Shown here: piece by piece, positions 18,433 to 33,866 of the stretch | Position numbering within the stretch: the stretch's first letter is position 1 | Layout: every line of letters starts with the position of its first letter | Source: Algoriphagus sp. | GTDB taxonomy: Bacteria > Bacteroidota > Bacteroidia > Cytophagales > Cyclobacteriaceae | Reading direction: 5' to 3' | DNA: 57,992 nucleotides | NCBI GenBank assembly: GCA_018336015.1 | Contig: JAGXQZ010000028.1 | Span: forward strand, 1-57,992 | Position numbers and translations under genes: made by a program | The notes under the pieces: model-generated | Told to the model about the DNA's origin: nothing | What the model saw: only the letters and a program-made list of their open reading frames with translations | The model's database searches: none

Positions 18433-19239
18433 TTAGAGTACTCCTTCAAAGATAAAGTAGTCCTCCTGCCAAGTCAGGTTTTCAGGTTTTTGGTCAAACA
18501 ATCCAAATACGCTTGATCCCGAGCCGGACATCGCAGCATAGTATGCCCCTGCCGAGTACAATCTATCTTTAATTGCAGCGATTTTGGGGTGGTTTTTGAA
18601 AATACTCGCTTCGAAGTCATTGACTAATTCGGCTTTCCATCTGTTTCGGTCTGCCAAGACCTCTTCCAACTTGACTTTGGGTGGAGCAGGAGAGACACCC
18701 GCGTAGGCTTCCTTGGTACCTACGTGAATTCCCGGATTGATTAAAACCAAATGGCTTCCCCTTAAGGAAAGATCAATGGGCTCCAGAATTTCACCTCGGC
18801 CACGCGCGATTTTTGGAGTGTTTTCTATAAAAAAAGGGCAATCACTTCCCAATTGAGCGGCATACTCTTCCAAAAAGAAATCATCCAAATGAAGGTCGAA
18901 CAGGTTGTTCATCAACTTTAGCGCAAAGGCACCGTCAGCTGAACCTCCGCCAAGACCTGCGCCCATTGGGATGTTTTTATGCAGGTGGATGGAAAGATTT
19001 GGCAGACCCGGAAAATCCTTTTTCAGCAGCTTTTCCGCTTTTAATATCAGATTATCTTTCGCTTCTCCTGGGATATCCAAACCAGATGAATTCCAGCTTG
19101 GCTTTTTATCCACAATCATTTCCAAAGCATCATAAAGAGGAATTGGCACCATACAAGTTTCGATCTCATGGTATCCGTCTTTTCTCTTGGAAGTGATGTG
19201 GAGGCCAAGATTGATTTTGGCATTGGGAAAGCTGATCAT
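18433..19239 (-). CDS. ispE: 4-diphosphocytidyl-2-C-methyl-D-erythritol kinase
   Basis: About 268 residues from the start chosen here. It phosphorylates CDP-methylerythritol in the non-mevalonate isoprenoid pathway. The GHMP-kinase ATP loop PMGAGLGGGSADG lies at about 91-103, the N-terminal FPNAKINLGL holds the conserved Lys, and MSGSGSSVFGLF is the C-terminal GHMP motif. A longer frame begins with TTG at 19260, but a perfect -7 promoter box covers that codon, so transcription should start inside it and the ATG at 19239 is the real start. It is convergent with the transporter gene with abutting stop codons. Confidence 0.94.
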   Translation of the reverse strand: MISFPNAKINLGLHITSKRKDGYHEIETCMVPIPLYDALEMIVDKKPSWNSSGLDIPGEAKDNLILKAEKLLKKDFPGLPNLSIHLHKNIPMGAGLGGGSADGAFALKLMNNLFDLHLDDFFLEEYAAQLGSDCPFFIENTPKIARGRGEILEPIDLSLRGSHLVLINPGIHVGTKEAYAGVSPAPPKVKLEEVLADRNRWKAELVNDFEASIFKNHPKIAAIKDRLYSAGAYYAAMSGSGSSVFGLFDQKPENLTWQEDYFIFEGVL

Positions 19240-19257
19240 AAGAAAAGGCTGTTTTGA

Positions 19258-19265
19258 CAAAAGTA
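19258..19265 (-). promoter_or_regulatory. ispE promoter -7 element (fixes the start codon)
   Basis: TACTTTTG on the minus strand matches TAnnTTTG perfectly. It predicts transcription from about 19251, which excludes the upstream TTG at 19260 and supports the ATG at 19239. A TTTG lies 23 bases upstream, a longer spacing than usual. Confidence 0.5.
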
Positions 19266-19557: not shown

Positions 19558-19588
19558 TTGTAAGTCTGGGATTAGAGTTTTAATATTG
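19558..19588 (+). promoter_or_regulatory. Candidate promoter of the ilv-leu operon
   Basis: TTG (19558-19560), a 20-base spacer and TAATATTG (19581-19588, one mismatch to TAnnTTTG). It would start transcription near 19595, giving a leader of about 35 bases before the leader-peptide ATG. The position fits well but the -7 box is imperfect. Confidence 0.35.
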
Positions 19589-19630: not shown

Positions 19631-19687
19631 ATGTATCCATTGGTCGTCCTGCTAAGCATTATTATTCTCATCGGATTTTCGAAGTGA
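19631..19687 (+). CDS. ilv-leu operon leader peptide (attenuator sensor)
   Basis: An 18-codon frame reading MYPLVVLLSIIILIGFSK, then TGA. Ten of its 18 residues are Leu, Val or Ile, and ten of the eleven residues 4-14. These are exactly the end products of the operon that begins 79 bases downstream. The stop codon lies inside the first arm of the antiterminator (19683-19693). This is the arrangement of classical enterobacterial ilv/leu leader peptides: stalling for lack of charged Leu, Val or Ile tRNA would free the arm. It was recognised by eye; no expression data. The alternative is chance, unlikely given codon content, placement and the flanking RNA switch. Confidence 0.85.
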   Translation: MYPLVVLLSIIILIGFSK

Positions 19688-19735
19688 GGCACTAGACCAT
19701 TATAACCCAGTATATAAAATCTAAAGTGCCTCACT
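19683..19735 (+). promoter_or_regulatory. Antiterminator hairpin of the ilv-leu attenuator
   Basis: AGTGAGGCACT (19683-19693) is the perfect 11-base complement of AGTGCCTCACT (19725-19735). The second arm is also the left arm of the terminator (19723-19733), so the two structures exclude each other. The first arm overlaps the leader-peptide stop. A possible competing hairpin joins CTCA/TCG in codons 13-15 (19667-19673) with CGA/TGAG (19680-19688), resembling the 1:2 hairpin of classical attenuators. Confidence 0.85.
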
Positions 19736-19753
19736 GACCTGAGGCACTTTTTT
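19723..19753 (+). terminator. Attenuator terminator upstream of ilvD
   Basis: Perfect 11-bp stem AAAGTGCCTCA / TGAGGCACTTT (19723-19733, 19740-19750), a 6-base loop CTGACC, and a run of T ending 14 bases before the ilvD ATG. A strong intrinsic terminator in front of an operon's first gene only makes sense as a regulated one. Confidence 0.93.
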
Positions 19754-19766
19754 ATTTTCTAATCCT

Positions 19767-21455
19767 ATGACCCAGAACAATCTGAAAAAGTACAGTTGGG
19801 AAATCAGTGACAATCCCGAGCATCCAGCCGGAATGGCGATGCTATATGCTACAGGAATGTCTGATAAAAAAATGAAACAGCCCTTTGTAGGGGTAGCCAG
19901 TTGCGGATATGAAAGCAACCCCTGCAATATGCACCTCAATGACTTTGCCGGTCTGATCAAAGCTTCCTCTCAGGAATATGATCTGACCGGTTTGGTTTTT
20001 AATACCATAGGGATTTCTGATGGGACTTCCATGGGTACTCTTGGAATGAGGTACTCTTTAGTGTCCAGAGATATTATTGCAGATTCGATCGAGTCCTTCA
20101 TTTTGGGACATTCATTTGATGGATGTGTGGCGGTAGCTGGTTGTGATAAAAATATGCCCGGTGCAGTTATGGGGATGCTACGAATCAACCGTCCCGCAAT
20201 TATGGTCTATGGTGGTACGATTGCTTCAGGTAACTATAAAGGAGAAAAACTCAATATCGTTTCTGCATTTGAAGCCTTTGGGAAAAAAATCCAAGGAACC
20301 ATCTCCGACGAAGATTACGATGGAGTAATTAGAAATGCGTGTCCGGGTAAAGGAGCTTGCGGGGGGATGTACACTGCCAATACTATGTCTTCGGCTATAG
20401 AAGCGATGGGTATGTCATTGCCTTACTCATCCTCCAATCCAGCTAATTCAGCAGAAAAACTAAAAGAGTGCCAGGATGTCAATAAATACATGCGTATTCT
20501 GCTGGAAAAAGACATCAAGCCAAAAGACATCGTCACCAGAAAAAGCTTGGAAAATGCAGTCACGGTAGCCGTGGCTCTTGGAGGAAGTACCAATGCTGTA
20601 CTTCACATTTTGGCGATTGCAAGGACTGCAGGGGTGGAATTTACCTTAGAGGACTTTAAGGCCATCAATGCAAAGACGCCATTGCTTGGAGATTTCAAAC
20701 CCTCAGGTAAATTCATGATGGAAGACTTGTACGAACAGGGAGGTCTTCCAGCTTTTATGAAATACATGCTCAACAATGGCTACCTCCATGGTGACTGCAT
20801 GACAGTGACAGGAAAGACGGTTGCTGAAAACCTTCAAAATATAGATCCTATCGTCCCATCCGTGGTCAATGTGATCCATCCGCTGGAGACACCGATCAAG
20901 AAGTCCGGTCACTTATGCATCCTGAAAGGTAATCTTGCTCCGGAAGGTGCAGTATCCAAAATTACCGGAAAAGAGGGGACCGCATTTACGGGACCAGCCA
21001 TCGTGTTTGACTCAGAACTTGAGGCAAATGATGCCATCCGTGACCATAAAGTGAAGGCAGGGAATGTAGTAGTCATTCGAAATGTAGGCCCAAAAGGTGC
21101 TCCTGGAATGCCTGAAATGCTAAAGCCAACTTCCATGATTATTGGCGCAGGCTTGGGTTCGGATGTTGCTTTGATCACCGATGGTAGATTTTCGGGAGGC
21201 ACACACGGCTTTGTCGTGGGGCATGTGACACCAGAGGCTTGGTGTGGTGGTCCAATCGGGCTGCTTAAGGATGGCGATATCATCACTATCGATGCAGATA
21301 ATTTTATCCTTTCTGTAAATGTTTCAGAGGAGGAATTTGCTGAGCGTAAAAAGACTTGGTCTCCTAAACCTATCGAAGGGCTTCAAGGCACGCTCAAAAA
21401 ATACAACAAACTCGTTGCGACCGCCTCAGAGGGTTGCGTTACCGATAAATTTTAA
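19767..21455 (+). CDS. ilvD: Dihydroxy-acid dehydratase
   Basis: 562 residues, usual length. It dehydrates 2,3-dihydroxy-isovalerate and -methylvalerate to the 2-keto acids, the third common step in valine and isoleucine synthesis. Iron-sulfur ligands appear at CNMH (Cys53), GCDKNMPG (Cys126) and [16 protein letters not shown] (Cys198). [17 protein letters not shown] near the C-terminus is the substrate/Mg loop. It is the first gene of the nine-gene operon, directly behind the attenuator, and its stop is 4 bases before ilvB. Cytoplasmic. Confidence 0.97.
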
Positions 21456-21459
21456 TCCT

Positions 21460-23151
21460 ATGAAGGACTTGATAAGAGGTGCAGACATTGTTGTGCGCTC
21501 CCTGATTGCCGAGCAGGCAGAGCTCATCTTCGGATATCCGGGTGGGGCTATTATGCCGGTATATGATGCGCTGTATGACTATCATGATCAAATCAAGCAC
21601 GTGCTTACCCGCCACGAGCAGGGTGCCATCCACGCAGCACAAGGTTATGCCAGAGTATCTGGGAAAGTTGGGGTTTGTCTTGCTACTTCCGGTCCCGGAG
21701 CGACCAATTTGATTACTGGATTGGCAGATGCGCAAATTGACAGCACACCGCTAGTCTGCATCACGGGACAAGTAGCGGCACATCTTTTAGGTACTGACGC
21801 TTTTCAAGAAACGGATGTAGTGGGTATTTCTATGCCCGGCACCAAATGGAATATTCAGGTAAGGAGGGTGGAGGATATTGCGCCTGCCATTGCAAAAGGT
21901 TTTTACATCGCTCGTTCCGGTCGACCAGGGCCTGTATTGATAGACATAACCAAAAATGCTCAGGTAGATTTTGGTGAATTTAACTATGTGCCTTGTCAAG
22001 GTTTTAGATCTTACAAAACACATCATCCAATTGAAAAAACAGCGATCCAACAAGCCGCTGAACTGATCAATCAGGCAGAAAGGCCCTACCTTTTGTTCGG
22101 ACAAGGGGTAGTTTTGGGCAATGCAGAAACTGAACTTAAGTTTTTCTTGGACAAATCAGGGATACCTGCAGCTTCGACCCTTTTGGGTTCTGGAGCGCTA
22201 TCTCAGGATCACCCAAATTACGTGGGGAAACTGGGTATGCATGGAAACTATGCCCCAAACTTGCTCACCAATCAGTGCGACGTATTGATTGCAGTGGGTA
22301 TGCGCTTTGATGATCGTGTGACGGGGGATCTGAAGCGCTATGCTAAGCAGGCAAAGGTGATTCATCTTGAATTGGATCCTTCTGAGATCAATAAAAATGT
22401 CAAAACTGCAGTAGCTGTACAAGGCAATTGCAAAGAGAGTCTTTCCATGCTGACTGAGGCTATTCTGGCTAAAAAGCATGACTCTTGGATGGCGAAGTTC
22501 AGAGAATTGGAAGAGCAGGAAAGAGCGGCAGTAGTTCAGCATGACATTACACCAACCAAGGAAGGACTTACCATGGGTGAAGTGATTCACCAGATCAATC
22601 AATACAAGGCGGATGACGCTGTCTTGGTGACTGATGTAGGTCAGCATCAGATGATCGCATGGAGGTATTTCAATTATAAAAAGCCTCGAACTCAAGTGAC
22701 TTCGGGTGGATTGGGAACAATGGGGTTTGCACTTCCAGCAGCTTTGGGAGCGCAGCTATTTGATTATTCTCGACAGGTAATCTGTGTGGTAGGAGATGGA
22801 GGTATTCAGATGACCATTCAGGAACTCGGTACCATCAAGCAGACTAAAGCCCCTGTGAAAATTGTCCTGCTGAATAATAACTACCTCGGTATGGTGCGTC
22901 AGTGGCAGCAGATGTTTTTTGATAAGCGTTATTCTTTTACAGAATTGGATAATCCTGATTTCATCATGCTTGCAGAAGCTTATGGTATCAAAGCACAAAA
23001 AGTTTCGGAAAGAGGTGATCTGCAAGAAGCGATCGAAGATATGCTCATCCATGATGGGCCCTATTTCCTCGAAGTGGTAGTGGAAAAAGAAGACAATGTA
23101 TTCCCTATGATCGCCACAGGTTGCTCTGTGGAGGAGGTCAGACTAAGCTAA
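21460..23151 (+). CDS. ilvB: Acetolactate synthase, large (catalytic) subunit
   Basis: 563 residues, a ThDP enzyme that condenses two pyruvates, or pyruvate and 2-oxobutanoate. The N-terminal ThDP segment has ELIFGYPGGAIMPVYDAL and the catalytic Glu in RHEQGAIHAAQGYAR. The central FAD-like domain includes GMRFDDRVTGDL. The C-terminal Mg/ThDP motif starts GDGGIQMT and continues to LLNNNYLGMVRQW. I use the ATG at 21460, 4 bases after the ilvD stop; a longer frame from 21319 overlaps ilvD and adds 47 non-homologous residues. Its regulatory subunit IlvN is the next gene, 9 bases on. Confidence 0.97.
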   Translation: MKDLIRGADIVVRSLIAEQAELIFGYPGGAIMPVYDALYDYHDQIKHVLTRHEQGAIHAAQGYARVSGKVGVCLATSGPGATNLITGLADAQIDSTPLVCITGQVAAHLLGTDAFQETDVVGISMPGTKWNIQVRRVEDIAPAIAKGFYIARSGRPGPVLIDITKNAQVDFGEFNYVPCQGFRSYKTHHPIEKTAIQQAAELINQAERPYLLFGQGVVLGNAETELKFFLDKSGIPAASTLLGSGALSQDHPNYVGKLGMHGNYAPNLLTNQCDVLIAVGMRFDDRVTGDLKRYAKQAKVIHLELDPSEINKNVKTAVAVQGNCKESLSMLTEAILAKKHDSWMAKFRELEEQERAAVVQHDITPTKEGLTMGEVIHQINQYKADDAVLVTDVGQHQMIAWRYFNYKKPRTQVTSGGLGTMGFALPAALGAQLFDYSRQVICVVGDGGIQMTIQELGTIKQTKAPVKIVLLNNNYLGMVRQWQQMFFDKRYSFTELDNPDFIMLAEAYGIKAQKVSERGDLQEAIEDMLIHDGPYFLEVVVEKEDNVFPMIATGCSVEEVRLS

Positions 23152-23160
23152 TTCAAACCT

Positions 23161-23661
23161 ATGAAGAGATATACCATTTTTGTTATTACCGAAAATTTCA
23201 TCGGGATTCTTAACCGGATCACTATCATTTTCACCCGTAGAGGAATCAATATCGATGCACTTACTGCATCAGAAAGCCGGATTCCGGGTATTCACCGGAT
23301 CACTATAGAGGTGACGGTCAATGAAGATACGGTCATCCAACTTGTCCATCAGATCGAAAAAATCATCGACGTAATCAAAGCATTTTATCACGAAGATGAA
23401 GGTGTCGTGTATCAGGAAATTGCGCTCTATAAGATCCCTGTTTCCCGTTTGGACGGTGGCTTGGAAAAAATCATCCGTCAGCACAATGCCAAAATCATAG
23501 CCGCTGAACCGGACTTTGTGGTACTCGAGCTTACCGGTCATAAAGAGCAAACTCAAGAGCTGCTGGAAATCCTCAAAGGCTATGGACTTCTTGAATTTGC
23601 AAGATCCGGGCGTGTGGCAGTCGCCAAGCGAATGCTTACCATTGAATCGTTCATTAAATAA
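23161..23661 (+). CDS. ilvN: Acetolactate synthase, small (regulatory) subunit
   Basis: 166 residues. An N-terminal ACT domain (about 1-80) holds the family segment RRGINIDALTASES followed by IPGIHRITIEV; a second ACT-like C-terminal domain covers about 85-160. This subunit binds valine for feedback inhibition and activates IlvB, its neighbour. Length is typical (about 160-185). The Asn/Gly positions that contact valine in characterised ACT domains were not checked residue by residue. Confidence 0.95.
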   Translation: MKRYTIFVITENFIGILNRITIIFTRRGINIDALTASESRIPGIHRITIEVTVNEDTVIQLVHQIEKIIDVIKAFYHEDEGVVYQEIALYKIPVSRLDGGLEKIIRQHNAKIIAAEPDFVVLELTGHKEQTQELLEILKGYGLLEFARSGRVAVAKRMLTIESFIK

Positions 23662-23701: not shown

Positions 23702-24745
23702 ATGAAATTGAAATTCGGAAGCGTTGAAGAAAACGTAGTTACCAGGGAAGAATTTCCTTTGGAAAAAGCAAGAGAAGTCCTCAAAAACGAGGTAATCGCA
23801 GTCATCGGTTATGGTGTTCAAGGACCGGGTCAAGCTTTGAATTTGAAAGACAACGGCTTCAACGTGATCGTGGGCCAGCGTAGCGGCTCGAAGACTTGGG
23901 ATAAAGCCATTGCCGATGGCTGGGTTCCCGGTGAAACGCTTTTTGAAATCGAAGAAGCTTGCGAAAAAGGCACAATTCTTCAATTCTTGCTTTCCGATGC
24001 AGGTCAGATTGCTCTTTGGCCTACCGTTAAAAAACACCTTACGCCGGGTAAAGCATTGTATTTCTCTCACGGTTTCGGAGTGACATACAAAGAGAAAACA
24101 GGCATTATTCCTCCTGCCGATGTGGATGTGATCTTGGTTGCACCAAAAGGTTCAGGTACTTCTTTGAGAAGAATGTTTGTAGAAGGACGTGGATTGAACT
24201 CATCTTATGCGATCTACCAAGACGCAACCGGAAAGGCGAAAGATCGCGTGGTAGCTTTGGGAATCGGCGTAGGTTCAGGATACCTATTCGAAACTGACTT
24301 CTACCGCGAAGTTACCTCCGACTTGACAGGCGAAAGAGGGACCTTGATGGGAGCCATCCAAGGTATTTTTGCTGCTCAGTACGAAGTGTTAAGATCCAAT
24401 GGACATACACCTTCAGAAGCTTTCAATGAAACTGTTGAAGAATTGACTCAGTCTTTGATGCCGCTTGTGGCTGAAAATGGAATGGACTGGATGTATGCCA
24501 ACTGTTCTACCACCGCTCAGCGTGGTGCATTGGATTGGTGGAAGCCTTTCCGCGACGCGACCAAGCCGGTTTTTGAAGCACTTTACAATTCTGTGAAAAC
24601 AGGTGTGGAAGCTCAAAAGTCTATCGATTCCAATTCCAAGCCGGACTACAGAGAAAAACTGGAAGCTGAATTGAAAGAATTGAGAGAATCCGAAATGTGG
24701 CAAGCAGGTGCAGTAGTGCGCCAGTTGAGACCAGAAAATAATTAA
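23702..24745 (+). CDS. ilvC: Ketol-acid reductoisomerase
   Basis: 347 residues. It isomerises and reduces acetolactate and acetohydroxybutyrate. The Rossmann motif [19 protein letters not shown] (about 34-52) is followed by the cofactor loop [13 protein letters not shown] (about 56-68), whose Arg and Ser residues suit NADPH. Metal-binding [15 protein letters not shown] and an all-alpha C-terminal knotted domain follow. The intergenic gap to ilvN is 40 bases, the largest among the ilv genes, but no terminator or -7 box is seen there. Confidence 0.97.
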
Positions 24746-24767: not shown

Positions 24768-26276
24768 ATGAGTGAAAAGCTGTGGATATTCGATACAACG
24801 CTTCGTGACGGTGAGCAGGTGCCTGGCTGCCAGCTCAATACCCAAGAAAAGATCATAGTAGCCAAGGCACTAGAAGCTCTTGGTGTAGATATTATCGAAG
24901 CAGGATTTCCGATTTCCAGTCCGGGAGATTTTAATTCCGTTCAGGAGATTTCAAAGGCTGTTTCCAATCCTATTATCTGTGCGCTCTCCAGAGCAGTAGA
25001 AAAAGATATAGAAGTAGCTGCAGCTGCCCTCAAGTATGCCAAAAAAGGCAGAATTCATACCGGAATCGGGGTTTCTCCTTATCATATTCAATATAAGCTC
25101 CGCTCCACGCCCGATGAAATCATCAAGCGTGGGGTGGCGGCTGTGAAGTTTGCCCGTCAGTTTGTGGATGATGTGGAGTTTTATGCAGAAGATGCCGGAA
25201 GATCAGAGCCAGATTTTCTCTGTAAAATCATCGAAGAGGTCATCAAAGCTGGAGCTACGGTAGTAAATATTCCTGATACGACGGGATATTGCCTGCCAGA
25301 GCAATATGGGGCGATTATCGCCAGCCTCAAAAACAATGTGCCAAACATCGACCGGGCAATTATTGCTACCCATTGTCACAATGACCTTGGGATGGCTACA
25401 GCAAATACAGTGGCAGGTGTGCAGCATGGTGCCCGTCAAGTAGAAGTGACCATCAACGGAATAGGTGAAAGAGCAGGCAATACCTCTATGGAAGAGGTGG
25501 TCATGGCGATAAAGTGCCATAAATCAATTCCAGTCTACACGGATATTGTGACTCCACGAATCTATCAGACTAGCCGATTGGTTTCCAAACTGATGAATAT
25601 GCCCGTGCAGCCCAACAAAGCAATCGTGGGAAGAAATGCATTTGCCCATTCTTCGGGAATTCACCAGGATGGAGTATTGAAGCATAGAGAAAACTACGAA
25701 ATCATCGATCCGAAAGAGGTAGGCGTGGAGGAGTCTTCCATCGTCTTGACAGCCAGATCCGGCCGTGCAGCATTGAAGCACCATTTGGATGCATTGGGCG
25801 TAGAGCTCGAAGGGGAAGAACTGAGAGAAGTTTACGAGGCATTCTTGGTATTGGCTGATTCCAAAAGGGATATCGGTCGAAAAGACCTCTTGGAACTAGT
25901 CGGGAAGTATATGGAAGAATCCAATTTCATCGAATTGGAAAATGTCAGCTATTCTTCCAACGGCTCGGTCAATGCTCATGTAAAACTAAAAATCGGAAAC
26001 GATGCGCATGAGGCTTCTTCTACAGGTGTTGGACCAGTGGATGCCGTTTTGAAAGCGATCGAGACCATAGTCAAACCTCAAGTGGATTTGGAAGAATTCC
26101 TAATCCAAGCCATCACCCACGGAAGTGATGATGTGGCCAAAGTCCACATGCGACTCATTAAATCCGAAAAACCTTATTATGGCTTTGCATCCAACCAAGA
26201 CATTGTCTTGGCTTCTGCACAGGCCTTTGTCGATGCACTCAACAAAATACCAGTCAAAGAATACGCGACTGCTTAA
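24768..26276 (+). CDS. leuA: 2-isopropylmalate synthase
   Basis: 502 residues. It condenses acetyl-CoA with 2-oxoisovalerate, the first committed step to leucine. [13 protein letters not shown] carries the metal Asp and catalytic Arg. [15 protein letters not shown] holds the two metal histidines, and [17 protein letters not shown] is the family signature. A C-terminal LeuA_dimer regulatory domain (about 380-500) should bind leucine. Two DRE-TIM synthases exist in this operon; this one has the LeuA-type pocket ([22 protein letters not shown]), whereas the other reads as citramalate synthase. leuC follows after 2 bases. Confidence 0.95.
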
Positions 26277-26278
26277 TT

Positions 26279-27685
26279 ATGGAAAAGACAACATTATTTG
26301 ATAAAATCTGGGATGCACACGTGGTCAAATCCGTGCCAGCTGGTCCGGATGTATTCTTCATCGATAAGCATTTTATCCATGAAGTGACCTCTCCCGTAGC
26401 TTTCCTTAATTTGGAAAAAAGGGGGATCACGGTAAAATATCCTCACAGAACCATCGCTACTCCCGACCATAACGTGCCTACGATTGATCAGGATCAGACG
26501 ATCAAGGATAAGCTTTCCCGTATGCAAGTGGAAAAGCTCCGCGAAAACTGTAAAAAATACGGGATCGAACTTCATGATTTGGGATCAGCTCATCATGGAA
26601 TCGTTCACGTGATTGGTCCTGAGCTCGGTGTGACTCAACCAGGAATGACCATCGTTTGTGGTGATTCTCACACCTCTACCCATGGTGCTTTTGGAGCGAT
26701 CGCATTTGGTATTGGTACTTCCGAAGTAGAAATGGTGCTCGCTACGCAGTGTATCATGCAGTCCAAGCCTAAGAAAATGAGGATTTCCGTTAATGGAACT
26801 CTGGGCGCTGGAGTGACCTCTAAAGACATCATCCTTTACATTATTTCTAAAATTTCTGCTGCAGGAGCTACCGGTTACTTTGTAGAATATGCCGGTTCGG
26901 CGATCCAAAGCCTCTCTATGGAGGCAAGAATGACTATCTGTAACATGTCCATCGAAATGGGCGCCAGAGGTGGGTTGATCGCTCCGGACGAGACAACTTT
27001 CAACTACTTGAAAGGAAAACAATATGCTCCAAAAGGGGCAGATTGGGACAAGGCAGTTGCTTACTGGAAAACTTTGAAAACCGACGAAGGCGCGGTTTTC
27101 GATCAAGAGCTGGTTTTCGAAGCCGCCGATATCGAACCGATGATTACCTATGGTACCAATCCTGGCATGGGAATCAAGGTTGTCGGTAATATCCCTACTA
27201 CAGAAGGCATGGAAGGTTCCAATAAAACTTCTTACCTCAAATCGTTGGATTACATGGGCTTCCAGCCTGGTGAACCAGTCAAAGGTAAGCAAGTGGACTA
27301 CGTGTTTGTAGGTTCATGTACCAATGGCCGTATTGAAGACATTCGATCTGTAGCTCAGTTTGTGAAAGGACATAAAAAAGCGGACAACATCACCGCTTGG
27401 ATTGTACCTGGATCCCGTGAAGTAGAGAAAATGGCTCACGAAGAAGGCTTGGTGAAAATCCTCGAAGAAGCTGGATTCGAACTTCGTCAGCCAGGCTGTT
27501 CTGCCTGTCTTGCCATGAATGATGACAAGATTCCTTCAGGAAAGTATGCGGTTTCGACTTCCAACCGAAACTTTGAAGGTCGCCAAGGTCCTGGTGCACG
27601 CACCATGCTTGCTTCTCCATTGACAGTGGCAGCGGTGGCAATCACCGGACGTATCACAGATCCTCGCGAAGTATTCGGAAATTGA
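26279..27685 (+). CDS. leuC: 3-isopropylmalate dehydratase, large subunit
   Basis: 468 residues of the aconitase superfamily. Cluster cysteines are in [12 protein letters not shown] and in [11 protein letters not shown], the standard 4Fe-4S ligands. [14 protein letters not shown] is the conserved substrate-site segment. With LeuD it isomerises 2- to 3-isopropylmalate. Because citramalate synthase lies in the same operon, the same enzyme probably also isomerises citramalate for isoleucine synthesis. It lies 2 bases after leuA and is separated from leuD by a 110-base repeat-like spacer. Confidence 0.96.
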
Positions 27686-27795: not shown

Positions 27796-28386
27796 ATGGC
27801 TTACGATAAATTTACAGTCCTACGCAGTACAGCAGTCCCTTTGCCTACTGAAAACGTGGACACCGACCAGATCATCCCAGCCCGATTCCTGAAGGCTACC
27901 GAGCGGGAAGGTTTTGGAGACAATCTCTTCCGTGACTGGAGATACGATGTGGAGGGCAATCCCAAAAAGGATTTTGTCCTCAACGATCCTACCTATTCCG
28001 GTAAAATCTTGGTGGCAGGAAAGAACTTCGGTTCAGGATCCAGCCGAGAGCATGCCGTGTGGGCGATCTATGATTATGGATTTCGTTGCGTAGTATCCAG
28101 CTTTTTCGCAGATATCTTCAAAAATAACTGCCTCAACATTGGTGTCCTTCCGGTGACCGTATCTGCAGAATTTGCTGACAAACTTTTTGTAGCAATCCAA
28201 GCTGATCCATCTACTGAGGTAGAGGTCAATCTGCCTGAGCAAAAGATCAAACTCCTTTCTACAGGTGAATTTGAATCTTTTGACATCAACGAATACAAAA
28301 AAGACAACATGCAAAATGGCTTCGATGACATCGACTACTTGTTGAATATGTCATCGGAAATAGACGCTTTTGCGGCTTCTAGATAA
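27796..28386 (+). CDS. leuD: 3-isopropylmalate dehydratase, small subunit
   Basis: 196 residues. The aconitase swivel domain shows ENVDTDQIIPARFLK near the N-terminus and GKNFGSGSSREHAVWAIYDYG (about 75-95), the loop that closes on the LeuC active site. Length is typical. It works as the LeuCD heterodimer with leuC, 110 bases upstream. It is followed by cimA after 11 bases. Confidence 0.96.
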   Translation: MAYDKFTVLRSTAVPLPTENVDTDQIIPARFLKATEREGFGDNLFRDWRYDVEGNPKKDFVLNDPTYSGKILVAGKNFGSGSSREHAVWAIYDYGFRCVVSSFFADIFKNNCLNIGVLPVTVSAEFADKLFVAIQADPSTEVEVNLPEQKIKLLSTGEFESFDINEYKKDNMQNGFDDIDYLLNMSSEIDAFAASR

Positions 28387-28397
28387 TTACTTCTCTC

Positions 28398-29981
28398 ATG
28401 GAGGCAAACAGAAGAATAGAAATTATGGATACAACCCTGAGGGATGGAGAACAGACCTCAGGCGTTTCCTTTTTGCCTTCGGAAAAACTCCAGATTGCCA
28501 AATTACTTCTTGAAGAGCTCAAGGTTGACAGAATAGAGGTGGCTTCTGCACGCGTATCAGAAGGGGAGTTGGAGGGTGTACAAAAGATTACGGCTTGGGC
28601 TGCGCAAAAGGGATACTTGGATCGCGTGGAGGTCTTGGGCTTTGTGGACACGCCTGTCTCAGTCAATTGGATTGTGGAGGCGGGTGCCAAAGTGCTCAAT
28701 CTTCTGACCAAAGGATCCTTGAATCATTTGGTTCACCAGCTCAAAAAGACCCCCGAGCAGCATTTTGCAGATATTGCCAAAAGCATTGCCTATGCTCAGG
28801 AATTGGGCGTATCGGTCAATGTCTACTTGGAGGACTGGTCCAATGGCATGCGGAATTCTCAAGAGTACACGCTGAGTCTGATTGAGTTTTTGACTCAACA
28901 GCCTGTCAAGCGAATCATGCTTCCGGACACACTAGGATTACTTTCTCCCAAAGAAGTAAAAGCCTTCTTTCAGCAAATCGTAGCAAAGTTTCCTGGAACC
29001 CATTTTGATTTTCATGCTCACAACGACTATGACCTCTCCGTGGCCAATGTCCTTGAGGCCATCACCCACGGTGCTGCGGGATTTCATACCACGGTCAACG
29101 GCCTAGGCGAACGTGCAGGAAATGCACCTCTAGAATCAGTGGTAGCAGTAATCAAAGATTTTACTTCGCTTGAAATCGGAGTTCAGGAACAAAAGATTTT
29201 CCGTGTTTCCAAGCTCGTGGAGCAGTTTTCAGGGCAGCATATCCCTGCCAACAAGCCAGTGGTTGGGGAAAATGTCTTTACCCAAACTGCAGGGATTCAC
29301 GCTGACGGAGACAATAAGAAAAACCTGTATTTCAACGATCTTCTCCCTGAGCGATTTGGCCGTCAGCGAAAATATGCCTTGGGCAAAACCTCTGGAAAAG
29401 CCAACATTCTAAAAAACTTGGAAGAACTCGGAATTTCTCTGGAGAAGGAAGAACTGGCTCGGGTAACCCAACGCATCATTGAATTGGGGGACAAAAAAGA
29501 GCGCGTGACTACTGAAGATCTTCCTTACATCATTTCTGATGTGCTTCAAAACAACTCCATTTCCAAGCATATCAACATCGAAGGTTACCACATGACTCAT
29601 TCCAAAGGATTGAAGCCGTCGGTCCAACTTCGATTGAATGTGCACGGTAAATCTTACGATGCCACAGCCACAGGTGACGGTCAATATGACTCGTTTATGA
29701 GGGCTGTGAAAAAAATCTACAAATCCCTGAAAAAGGAACTGCCCAAACTGATCGATTACCATGTTTCCATTCCTCCGGGAGGGAAAACAGATGCGTTTGT
29801 GGAGACGGTGATCACTTGGGATTATGGAAAAATCTTCAAAACCAAAGGGCTTGACCCTGACCAAACCGTGGCAGCGATGATGGCCACGGAGAAAATGCTC
29901 AACATCATCGAATCATTTACTACCAATTCAGAAAAAGAATCCACTTCCTATGGAAATGCATATCGCGTTATTGCCGGGTGA
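28398..29981 (+). CDS. cimA: (R)-citramalate synthase, Leptospira type
   Basis: 527 residues, a second LeuA-like DRE-TIM synthase with a C-terminal LeuA_dimer regulatory domain (about 390-510). It closely follows Leptospira CimA as I recall it: [58 protein letters not shown] and FTQTAGIHADGD. The leucine of NLLTKG and the tyrosine of VYLEDWSNG correspond to Leu104 and Tyr144, described as making the Leptospira pocket select pyruvate. It would condense acetyl-CoA with pyruvate to citramalate, which LeuCD and LeuB then turn into 2-oxobutanoate for isoleucine. No threonine deaminase gene is in the operon. Its last 32 bases overlap leuB. A plain second isopropylmalate synthase is the less likely alternative. 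Confidence 0.87.
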   Translation: MEANRRIEIMDTTLRDGEQTSGVSFLPSEKLQIAKLLLEELKVDRIEVASARVSEGELEGVQKITAWAAQKGYLDRVEVLGFVDTPVSVNWIVEAGAKVLNLLTKGSLNHLVHQLKKTPEQHFADIAKSIAYAQELGVSVNVYLEDWSNGMRNSQEYTLSLIEFLTQQPVKRIMLPDTLGLLSPKEVKAFFQQIVAKFPGTHFDFHAHNDYDLSVANVLEAITHGAAGFHTTVNGLGERAGNAPLESVVAVIKDFTSLEIGVQEQKIFRVSKLVEQFSGQHIPANKPVVGENVFTQTAGIHADGDNKKNLYFNDLLPERFGRQRKYALGKTSGKANILKNLEELGISLEKEELARVTQRIIELGDKKERVTTEDLPYIISDVLQNNSISKHINIEGYHMTHSKGLKPSVQLRLNVHGKSYDATATGDGQYDSFMRAVKKIYKSLKKELPKLIDYHVSIPPGGKTDAFVETVITWDYGKIFKTKGLDPDQTVAAMMATEKMLNIIESFTTNSEKESTSYGNAYRVIAG

Positions 29982-31017
29982 CGGCATCGGTCCTGAGGTC
30001 ATTGCTCAGGCTGTGAAAGTTGTTAATGCTGTTGGCCAAAAGTTTGGTCATACCATCACCTTCAAAGAAGGATTGGTGGGCGCCTGTGCCATTGATGCCA
30101 CGGGTGATCCCTATCCGGATGCCACGCATGAGATCTGCGCAGGTTCGGATGCTGTTCTTTTCGGTGCGATCGGTGATCCTAAATATGACAATGATCCCAA
30201 GGCCAAAGTCCGTCCGGAGCAGGGATTGCTAAGAATGAGACAAAAGTTGGGTCTATTTGCCAACGTTCGGCCGACCTTTACTTTTCCTTCTTTGGTGCAT
30301 AAGTCTCCTTTGAAATTGGATCGAGTGGACGGAGTGGATTTGGTGTTTTTCAGAGAATTGACCGGCGGAGTTTACTTTGGTGAGCCTAGAGGTCGAAATG
30401 AGCAGGGCACCAAAGCCTTTGACACCAATGTGTACAGCAAAGAGGAAATCGTTCGTTTGGCGAGAATGGGTTTTGAAGCTGCGCAAAAGAGAAGAAAGCT
30501 TCTGACCTGTGTAGATAAAGCCAACGTAATGGCGACATCTAGATTGTGGAGAGAAACTGTGCAGGAATTAGCTCCCGAGTATCCGGATGTCAAAGTAGAA
30601 TATGAATTTGTGGATGCTGTGGCCATGCGACTGATCCAATGGCCAAAGGCTTATGATGTGTTGATTACAGAAAACCTGTTTGGTGACATTCTAACCGATG
30701 AAGCCTCCGTGATTTCAGGATCTATGGGCTTAATGCCTTCCGCATCCTTGGGTTCCAAAGTGAAGCTCTTCGAACCCATCCACGGTTCCTATCCTCAGGC
30801 AGCAGGTAAAGACATCGCCAATCCGTTGGGAACGGTGCTTTCAGCTTCGATGATGTTTGATTATGCCTTTGGACTGGCGGAAGAAGCCAAACTGATCAGT
30901 GATGTGGTGAATCTTTCATTGGCAGAAGGAGTGGTGACAGAAGATATCGCAGAAGGCGGCAAAGCTTACAAGACTTCTGAAGTAGGAGACTGGCTGGCAG
31001 CGAAGATTTTGGGATAA
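29950..31017 (+). CDS. leuB: 3-isopropylmalate dehydrogenase
   Basis: 355 residues of the decarboxylating beta-hydroxyacid dehydrogenase family. HIALLPGDGIGPEV is the N-terminal signature. RELTGGVYFGEPRG (about 137-150) contains the substrate-binding Arg/Tyr region. ENLFGDILTDEASVISGSMGLMPSASLG holds the metal-binding aspartates (about 239-266), and EPIHGSYPQAAGKDIANP the NAD-binding end. It probably serves both leucine (isopropylmalate) and isoleucine (methylmalate) branches. It overlaps cimA by 32 bases, indicating coupling, and ends the operon before a GNRA-loop terminator. A decayed copy of its last bases lies about 200 bases downstream. Confidence 0.96.
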   Translation: MEMHIALLPGDGIGPEVIAQAVKVVNAVGQKFGHTITFKEGLVGACAIDATGDPYPDATHEICAGSDAVLFGAIGDPKYDNDPKAKVRPEQGLLRMRQKLGLFANVRPTFTFPSLVHKSPLKLDRVDGVDLVFFRELTGGVYFGEPRGRNEQGTKAFDTNVYSKEEIVRLARMGFEAAQKRRKLLTCVDKANVMATSRLWRETVQELAPEYPDVKVEYEFVDAVAMRLIQWPKAYDVLITENLFGDILTDEASVISGSMGLMPSASLGSKVKLFEPIHGSYPQAAGKDIANPLGTVLSASMMFDYAFGLAEEAKLISDVVNLSLAEGVVTEDIAEGGKAYKTSEVGDWLAAKILG

Positions 31018-33753: not shown

Positions 33754-33866
33754 ATAAATTTAATTAACAATTAAGCTAAGGGAATCAATGAAATGCTTTT
33801 AATCTTGTTAATTGCAAAATTGGCTGATAGCCATGGTTTTGGGGTAAGAATTTAGCTGTGTAAACA

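Follow-up and report, generated by a model that had tools for sequence, protein, structure and literature searches.

The ilv-leu locus of Algoriphagus and its leader region

The window, that is, the whole 57,992-nt stretch of DNA analyzed here (contig 28 of an Algoriphagus genome), carries on its plus strand nine genes in the order ilvD-ilvB-ilvN-ilvC-leuA-leuC-leuD-cimA-leuB. The first, ilvD (dihydroxy-acid dehydratase; 19767..21455; TIGR00110, 713 bits, and Pfam), encodes a protein whose best named match is that of Algoriphagus mannitolivorans (91% identity). It is followed by ilvB (acetolactate synthase large subunit; 21319..23151; TIGR00118, 706 bits), ilvN (acetolactate synthase small subunit; 23161..23661; TIGR00119, 101 bits), ilvC (ketol-acid reductoisomerase; 23702..24745; TIGR00465, 311 bits), leuA (2-isopropylmalate synthase; 24768..26276; TIGR00973, 666 bits), leuC (26279..27685; TIGR00170, 672 bits), leuD (27796..28386; TIGR00171, 189 bits), a cimA-like gene (28398..29981), and leuB (29950..31017; TIGR00169, 452 bits). 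Because the family match of ilvB starts at residue 53, its true start is probably downstream of 21319. The cimA-like gene is the second LeuA-like gene in the operon and likely encodes a citramalate synthase: its best NCBIfam match was NF042433 CimA, at 696 bits against a curated cut-off of 950. This match suggests that isoleucine is made from pyruvate, and the operon would then hold a threonine-independent isoleucine route. The cimA-like frame and leuB overlap by 32 bases (29950-29981). Elsewhere in the window, a 5S rRNA gene lies near the contig start (202-313), so an rRNA operon is probably where the contig is broken.

The region of interest sits between a minus-strand GHMP-kinase gene (18433-19260) and the plus-strand ilvD. 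It contains a leader frame, MYPLVVLLSIIILIGFSK (19631..19687, plus strand), that runs from an ATG at 19631 to a TGA at 19685-19687, is conserved in relatives, and is the only frame there with an excess of synonymous changes. Ten of its 18 residues are isoleucine, leucine, or valine (ILV; 4 Leu, 2 Val, 4 Ile). Three plus-strand arms are associated with it. Arm 1, the 5' arm of the putative antiterminator (19683..19693; supported by the sequence and by relatives), holds the leader stop codon, and its sequence AGTGAGGCACT is the exact reverse complement of AGTGCCTCACT (19725-19735). Arm 2 (19723..19735; sequence, pattern scan, and comparison) is shared, serving at 19725-19735 as the antiterminator 3' arm and at 19723-19733 as the terminator 5' arm. 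In the latter register, AAAGTGCCTCA (19723-19733) is the exact reverse complement of TGAGGCACTTT (19740-19750) across a loop of 6. Arm 3, the 3' arm of the intrinsic terminator (19740..19750; sequence, pattern scan, and relatives), leads into a run of six T seen in the sequence (19748..19753), and 13 bases separate this run from the ilvD ATG at 19767. A separate pattern scan found the same terminator. The original prediction had described an ILV-rich leader of 18 codons, a perfect 11-bp antiterminator overlapping the leader stop, and a perfect 11-bp terminator with a T-run before ilvD; all three are exact on the sequence, and the coordinates of arm 2 confirm the overlap behind its claim that the hairpins share an arm and exclude each other.

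Single-window statistics were less telling. The 171-nt leader folds with ordinary stability (z = -1.28), matched by 22 of 200 shuffles. When the final thresholds for distant loci (see below) were applied with position relative to a gene not required, the loose three-part layout of terminator, antiterminator, and ILV-rich frame was also found on the plus strand near 33793, 39091, and 51425. Because these thresholds are satisfied at three other sites in the window, the layout alone is no proof. The antiterminator at the leader, at -21.2 kcal/mol, is the strongest among the window sites with this layout, the next being -17.3. That the putative attenuator exceeds chance is settled by comparison of sequences rather than by statistics on one window. 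Rfam release 15, searched at the gathering score, matched only the 5S rRNA in the window and no leader family. In seven further loci of this type (L020, L062, L079, L208, L217, L247, and L264) and in the trp and his loci of the same genome (L273 and L272), the only Rfam match was a tRNA in L062.

Conservation of the leader and both hairpins in near relatives

We fetched 270 ilvD upstream regions, passed all of them through the detector scripts, and read 179 by eye; the comparison search covered 58 same-genus genomes. The near set comprised 115 ilvD loci from Algoriphagus and neighboring genera, corresponding to 97 distinct elements, with some genomes represented twice (L246 was excluded as a copy of L202). 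The original prediction had proposed aligning the region upstream of ilvD in relatives, with loss of the leader frame or of the stems there counting against it; it withstood this check. Both hairpins were present in 115 of 115 near loci: a terminator at or below -8 kcal/mol and, with no energy cut, an antiterminator that uses the 5' arm of this terminator. The antiterminators range from -11.3 to -21.0 kcal/mol among the matches listed. In 111 of 115, a leader frame with an ATG start ends at arm 1 (tolerance, 16 nt on either side). This count was restricted to ATG starts because the first detector, which chose start codons automatically, overlooked 21 near loci. The four loci missing from the count are L004, whose leader is intact by eye (the duplex program extended arm 1 upstream); L025, at a contig end; and L029 and L039, two Algoriphagus loci whose leaders contain less ILV (in L029, 5 of 17 residues by eye). 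Leader length varies across the near loci, and the stop codon is either a TGA within arm 1 or a TAA, TAG, or TGA a few bases 5' of it; despite this variation, the stop position stays at arm 1.

Within the 97 distinct near elements, one arm-2 position showed three-way substitution (G/C/G in 88, A/T/A in 8, and A/T/G in 1), and a second arm-2 position changed together with arm 3 while keeping a G-U pair with arm 1 in 2 elements; these pairing counts cover only positions paired by the duplex program. The predicted antiterminator that shares the terminator arm is thus kept by compensating changes. A likely -7 promoter element, TAATATTG (19581..19588, plus strand), lies 5' of the leader and has one mismatch to TAnnTTTG, given as the Bacteroidota consensus in a passage of PMC9723704. 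At 15 to 90 nt 5' of the leader, this motif with at most one mismatch was present in 111 of 111 near loci (composition shuffles, ∼68), and the exact motif in 47 of 111 (shuffles, ∼7).

We compared codon changes in 53 nearest-neighbor pairs drawn from 82 distinct near leader sequences. In the leader frame, 66 of 130 single-base codon changes were synonymous (51%) versus 24% expected; the two other frames gave 29 of 133 (22%) and 18 of 129 (14%) versus 22% and 20% expected. Changes involving a stop numbered 0 in the leader frame versus 28 and 17 in the others. Third codon positions varied most (89 of 179 changes), and 52 of 66 changed ILV codons remained ILV codons. These comparisons support the conclusion that the near leaders evolve as a protein-coding frame and so provide comparative evidence for translation. 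A Shine-Dalgarno-like motif was seen in 1 of 91 leader contexts.

The ILV content of the 111 near leaders ranges from 25 to 93% (median, 53%). Ile, Leu, and Val together make up 54% of near-leader residues and Phe 9.5%, with Ala at 0.4% in near and 1.8% in distant leaders, a composition that argues for codon sensing rather than a membrane peptide. The original prediction also held that the leader senses all three end products at once. This stood for isoleucine and leucine, whose codons occur in 76 of 76 distinct near leaders, and less generally for valine, found in only 66 of 76 and lacking in 10. Codons for all three were present in 24 of 29 distinct distant leaders.

Recurrence at distant loci with different arm sequences

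The distant set held 154 loci (24 from the same order, 65 named records, 40 from the same family, and 25 from a phylum search), a fetched subset of the matches. A first detector, which asked for a stop between -12 and +14 relative to arm 1, accepted 19 of 154 distant loci, 11 of 3,080 shuffles, and 2 of 154 reverse complements. The final detector allowed a wider stop distance and demanded tighter energies and ILV content. With these thresholds, which were set after reading sequences, the full layout was found with other arm sequences in 29 of 154 distant loci, 2 of 3,080 shuffles, and 0 of 154 reverse complements; two loci (L125 and L210) pass the first rule and fail the final one. The proportion of 29 in 154 is no frequency estimate because the loci are a fetched subset and 59 are apparently operon-internal, meaning that a long frame on the same strand either reaches into ilvD or stops no more than 80 nt away from it. 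The layout occurred in 0 of these 59 loci versus 29 of the 95 others. In 30 distant loci, both hairpins were accompanied by a frame that ends at arm 1, and all 30 frames were ILV-rich: among 1,140 possible residue triples, ILV ranked first (30 of 30), followed by GIV, IKV, and ISV with 28.

In each of the 29 loci, 5 to 11 arm-2 bases can pair with both arm 1 and arm 3. The 24 distinct arm-2 strings among them overstate the variety: for many, flanking A or G is the sole difference, and most share a start of AAGCC or something close to it; trimming the flanking A and G by eye left ∼15. The passing loci comprise seven from other genera of the same family; loci of three same-order families; 14 of the 29 from family f42, at phylum distance; one each from f26 and f69; two Saprospiraceae records; and one Ignavibacteriae record. 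This remote recurrence with differing arms is stronger comparative evidence for the predicted hairpins than the near substitutions are. Two same-order loci (L076 and L078) have a terminator before ilvD, but the detectors found no ILV-rich leader there. The f42 leaders (L247-L251, L254-L260, L264, and L269) have similar C-terminal ends, such as GITYRPGKAL, and their C-terminal codons form arm 1 within the coding region. This resemblance may stem from the RNA arm or from a role of the nascent peptide.

These comparisons bear on explanations in which the leader frame takes no part in attenuation. That it encodes an independent small membrane peptide, the hairpins being the ordinary terminator of its transcript, seems very improbable. 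The MYPLVVLLSIIILIGFSK peptide is very hydrophobic, but this is due to Ile, Leu, and Val, plus Phe in the near leaders, and the Ala content given above is far below that of usual membrane helices; the shared arm, the three-way substitutions, and the position before ilvD would also be left unexplained. We give as little weight to the idea that the same terminator is used by a regulatory protein, or by an RNA that binds a metabolite or tRNA, with the leader frame being incidental. CodY or T-boxes do serve BCAA operons of other phyla, according to a passage of PMC5794164, but selection on the codon frame and the retention of ILV codons at distant loci whose arms differ speak against such a control here. 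So does the Rfam search, whose 4,227 families we take to include the T-box: neither the attenuator region nor the seven further loci of this type had a match at the gathering score.

Ribosome position and nascent folding

Taken together, we predict with high confidence that the element is a ribosome-mediated transcription attenuator of the nine-gene operon, consisting of a BCAA-rich leader frame and three arms with two mutually exclusive pairings. In the proposed mechanism, a ribosome supplied with charged Leu-, Val-, and Ile-tRNAs would reach the UGA within arm 1 and cover that arm; arm 2 would then pair with arm 3, and RNA polymerase would stop at the T-run near 19753. Were one of these tRNAs short, the ribosome would stall at one of the ten ILV codons and leave arm 1 free. 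Arm 1 would then pair with arm 2 before arm 3 is synthesized, so that arm 3 would have no free arm-2 end on which to start, and transcription would continue into ilvD. The operon genes are thus likely shut off when leucine, valine, and isoleucine are plentiful.

The geometry of the leader is consistent with this mechanism. We assumed a footprint in which the ribosome reaches 11 nt past the first base of the A-site codon; a passage of PMC4833913 gives a reach of 12 nt downstream of the stop. The last Ile codon of the window's leader starts 12 nt 5' of arm 1 (extended by the program to 19682), so a stall at any ILV codon would spare arm 1. By this measure arm 1 is free with a stall at any of the 10 ILV codons and entirely covered when the ribosome sits at the stop.

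We then modeled nascent folds of RNA lacking arm 3, holding all RNA up to the leading edge of the ribosome unpaired. At least six arm 1-arm 2 pairs formed in 100 of 111 leaders when the ribosome was stalled at the final ILV codon and in 91 of 111 without a ribosome, versus 7 of 111 with the ribosome at the stop. With the ribosome stalled, the median number of loop-side arm-2 bases still available to arm 3 was 0, and 91 of 111 leaders had 0 or 1. Once arm 3 exists, the terminator is the more stable state in all 111 modeled leaders; the choice would therefore be kinetic, set by ribosome position and the order of synthesis. These folds, both hairpins in every near locus, the ATG leader in 111 of 115, and the codon-wise evolution of the frame support the original reading that the element works like classical ribosome-mediated attenuation.

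As controls we folded seven Escherichia coli leaders (thrL, leuL, ilvL, ivbL, hisL, trpL, and pheL), scoring arm 2 as paired with anything upstream. They resemble the window in having product codons in the leader, a shared arm, and a terminator. With the ribosome at the stop, arm-2 pairing fell to 0 or 1 base in six of seven; hisL, with 9, is a failed control. For leuL and ilvL, pairing was seen with a stall on the first regulatory codon and none with a stall on the last, a sign that the model is rough. The distance from stop to arm 1 start was -10 for thrL, -8 for ivbL, +3 for pheL, -15 for trpL, -32 for leuL and ilvL, and +34 for hisL, the first three being close to the near relatives of the window. 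We had considered the stop codon inside the antiterminator arm as a special trait and rejected this, since E. coli leaders place it likewise; the emphasis that the original prediction laid on the stop overlap is accordingly not distinctive.

Default state of the untranslated leader

Without a ribosome, thrL, leuL, trpL, and pheL showed no arm-2 pairing and hisL showed 4 bases; ilvL and ivbL paired arm 2, as do the window and most near relatives. Pairing without a ribosome is therefore not unique to the window. It matters for what an untranslated leader would do. In a four-segment attenuator, the type of E. coli trp and Listeria Rli60, a protector helix within the leader would pair with arm 1 when no ribosome is present, and lack of translation would mean termination. 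We consider this arrangement somewhat unlikely here, although several observations favor it. Four of the seven E. coli leaders show four-segment behavior in the fold test, and start-codon and ribosome binding site mutants of the Listeria monocytogenes attenuator Rli60 are super-attenuated, as stated in a passage of PMC5864092. Before arm 2 is made, arm 1 already shows partial pairing (median probability, 0.63 in 111 leaders). Its complementarity to the leader is greater than after codon permutation in several f42 members (z of about -2) and in L239, and also in L096 and L198, as isolated cases among the near loci (z of about -2.5). Across 21 near representatives, however, pairing was on average not above that of leaders with permuted codons (mean z, -0.13) or with synonymous recoding (mean z, -0.36), RNAalifold, given an alignment of 54 Algoriphagus leaders, returned only a nearly invariant 4-pair helix 5' of arm 2, and arm 1 pairs with arm 2 without a ribosome in 91 of the 111 leaders. 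The protector search gave a mean z of -0.52 (permutation) and -0.48 (synonymous recoding) over 49 representatives and of -0.82 and -0.57 over the 28 distant ones, the lowest values being in f42 and L239. Near the window, no conserved protector (segment 1) helix was supported by RNAalifold or by the permutation and recoding tests.

Given no supported protector helix and pairing without a ribosome, an untranslated leader is predicted to read through. In these models, read-through may be the default without leader translation, the opposite of the super-attenuated Rli60 mutants. On this basis we tentatively propose, at somewhat less than even confidence, a phylum-wide default-ON class of BCAA attenuators in Bacteroidota, with only three segments and no protector, a terminating ribosome that acts as the anti-antiterminator, and arms freely rewritten between families. 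If such a class exists, loss of leader translation would switch the operon on, and tight transcription-translation coupling would be shown in bacteria that initiate without Shine-Dalgarno pairing. Start-codon mutants give opposite predictions: on here, and off in Rli60 as described in part of PMC5864092.

Relation to known attenuators

According to the passages of PMC5864092, Rli60 is like the window in its ilvD-led ilv-leu operon, BCAA-rich leader peptide, and mutually exclusive antiterminator (segments 2-3) and terminator (3-4). It is unlike the window in its 13-residue leader with a ribosome binding site and its four segments: in our set, 90 of 91 leader contexts are without a Shine-Dalgarno-like motif and no conserved segment 1 was found near the window. 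It also differs in that its leader-translation mutants are super-attenuated, the opposite of the read-through that our models predict as the default here. The ilvD attenuator of Staphylococcus aureus, as presented in part of PMC5794164, likewise has an Ile/Leu-rich leader peptide before a terminator in an ilvD-led operon; its proposed antiterminator pairs with the terminator U-tail and leaves the stem intact, whereas arm 1 of the window would compete for the stem. In Corynebacterium and other bacteria, BCAA-rich upstream frames precede ilvB (PMC10272879 and PMC11857589, in the passages available). The ilvB-II motif/ilvBNC attenuator and the ilvB-OMG motif of Corynebacterium share with the window such a frame, a terminator, and an antiterminator but differ in their first gene and their structures, and the attenuator of C. 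glutamicum has an anti-antiterminator hairpin, unlike the window (same passages).

Within the phylum, the passages of PMC9723704 report strong clues for leader-peptide attenuation of amino acid operons in Flavobacterium psychrophilum; they hold no leader, arms, or phylum-wide comparison, and the main text is without "ilv" or "isoleucine." Small frames reminiscent of leader peptides are mentioned for Bacteroides thetaiotaomicron in part of PMC7366714. The original prediction called such control striking in this phylum. That was too strong, given the attenuation suggested for Flavobacterium (PMC9723704) and the ilvD-led type in Listeria and Staphylococcus (PMC5864092 and PMC5794164), as far as those passages go. 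The logic of the mechanism is known from classical attenuation, and for Bacteroidota it is only hinted at in the literature searched. Among the matches listed, no description of an ilv attenuator in Bacteroidota was found; a survey of attenuation in bacteria (Lopatovskaya et al. 2010, Mol Biol 44:128) may include such predictions.

If the mechanism holds, one short RNA would report BCAA levels for a nine-gene pathway in a phylum with sparsely mapped gene regulation. A stalling switch of this kind would need a ribosome close behind the polymerase from the first tens of nucleotides, and this conserved element therefore allows a direct test of transcription-translation coupling in organisms that do without Shine-Dalgarno pairing. 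For annotation, an ILV-rich frame that stops at one arm of an antiterminator could serve as a rule where no Rfam model matched.

Candidate leaders at other operons of the same genome

Two further candidate leaders were noted in this genome. Upstream of hisG, the reverse complement of L272 (379-462) encodes MENTNRNIEFLATAQHAHRLHHFHHSS, a candidate his leader in which 6 codons specify His; the terminator rule found no intrinsic terminator there, and another mechanism may act at this leader. Upstream of trpE, positions 1295-1425 of L273 hold a candidate trp attenuator. Given these candidate trp and his leaders, the genome may make general use of ribosome-mediated control. The trp leader, MRTIANKYWWWHSSTFQGKAQKAVA, has three adjacent Trp codons; the terminator that accompanies it ends in a T-run and scores -19.6 kcal/mol, and the antiterminator duplex scores -16.4 kcal/mol.
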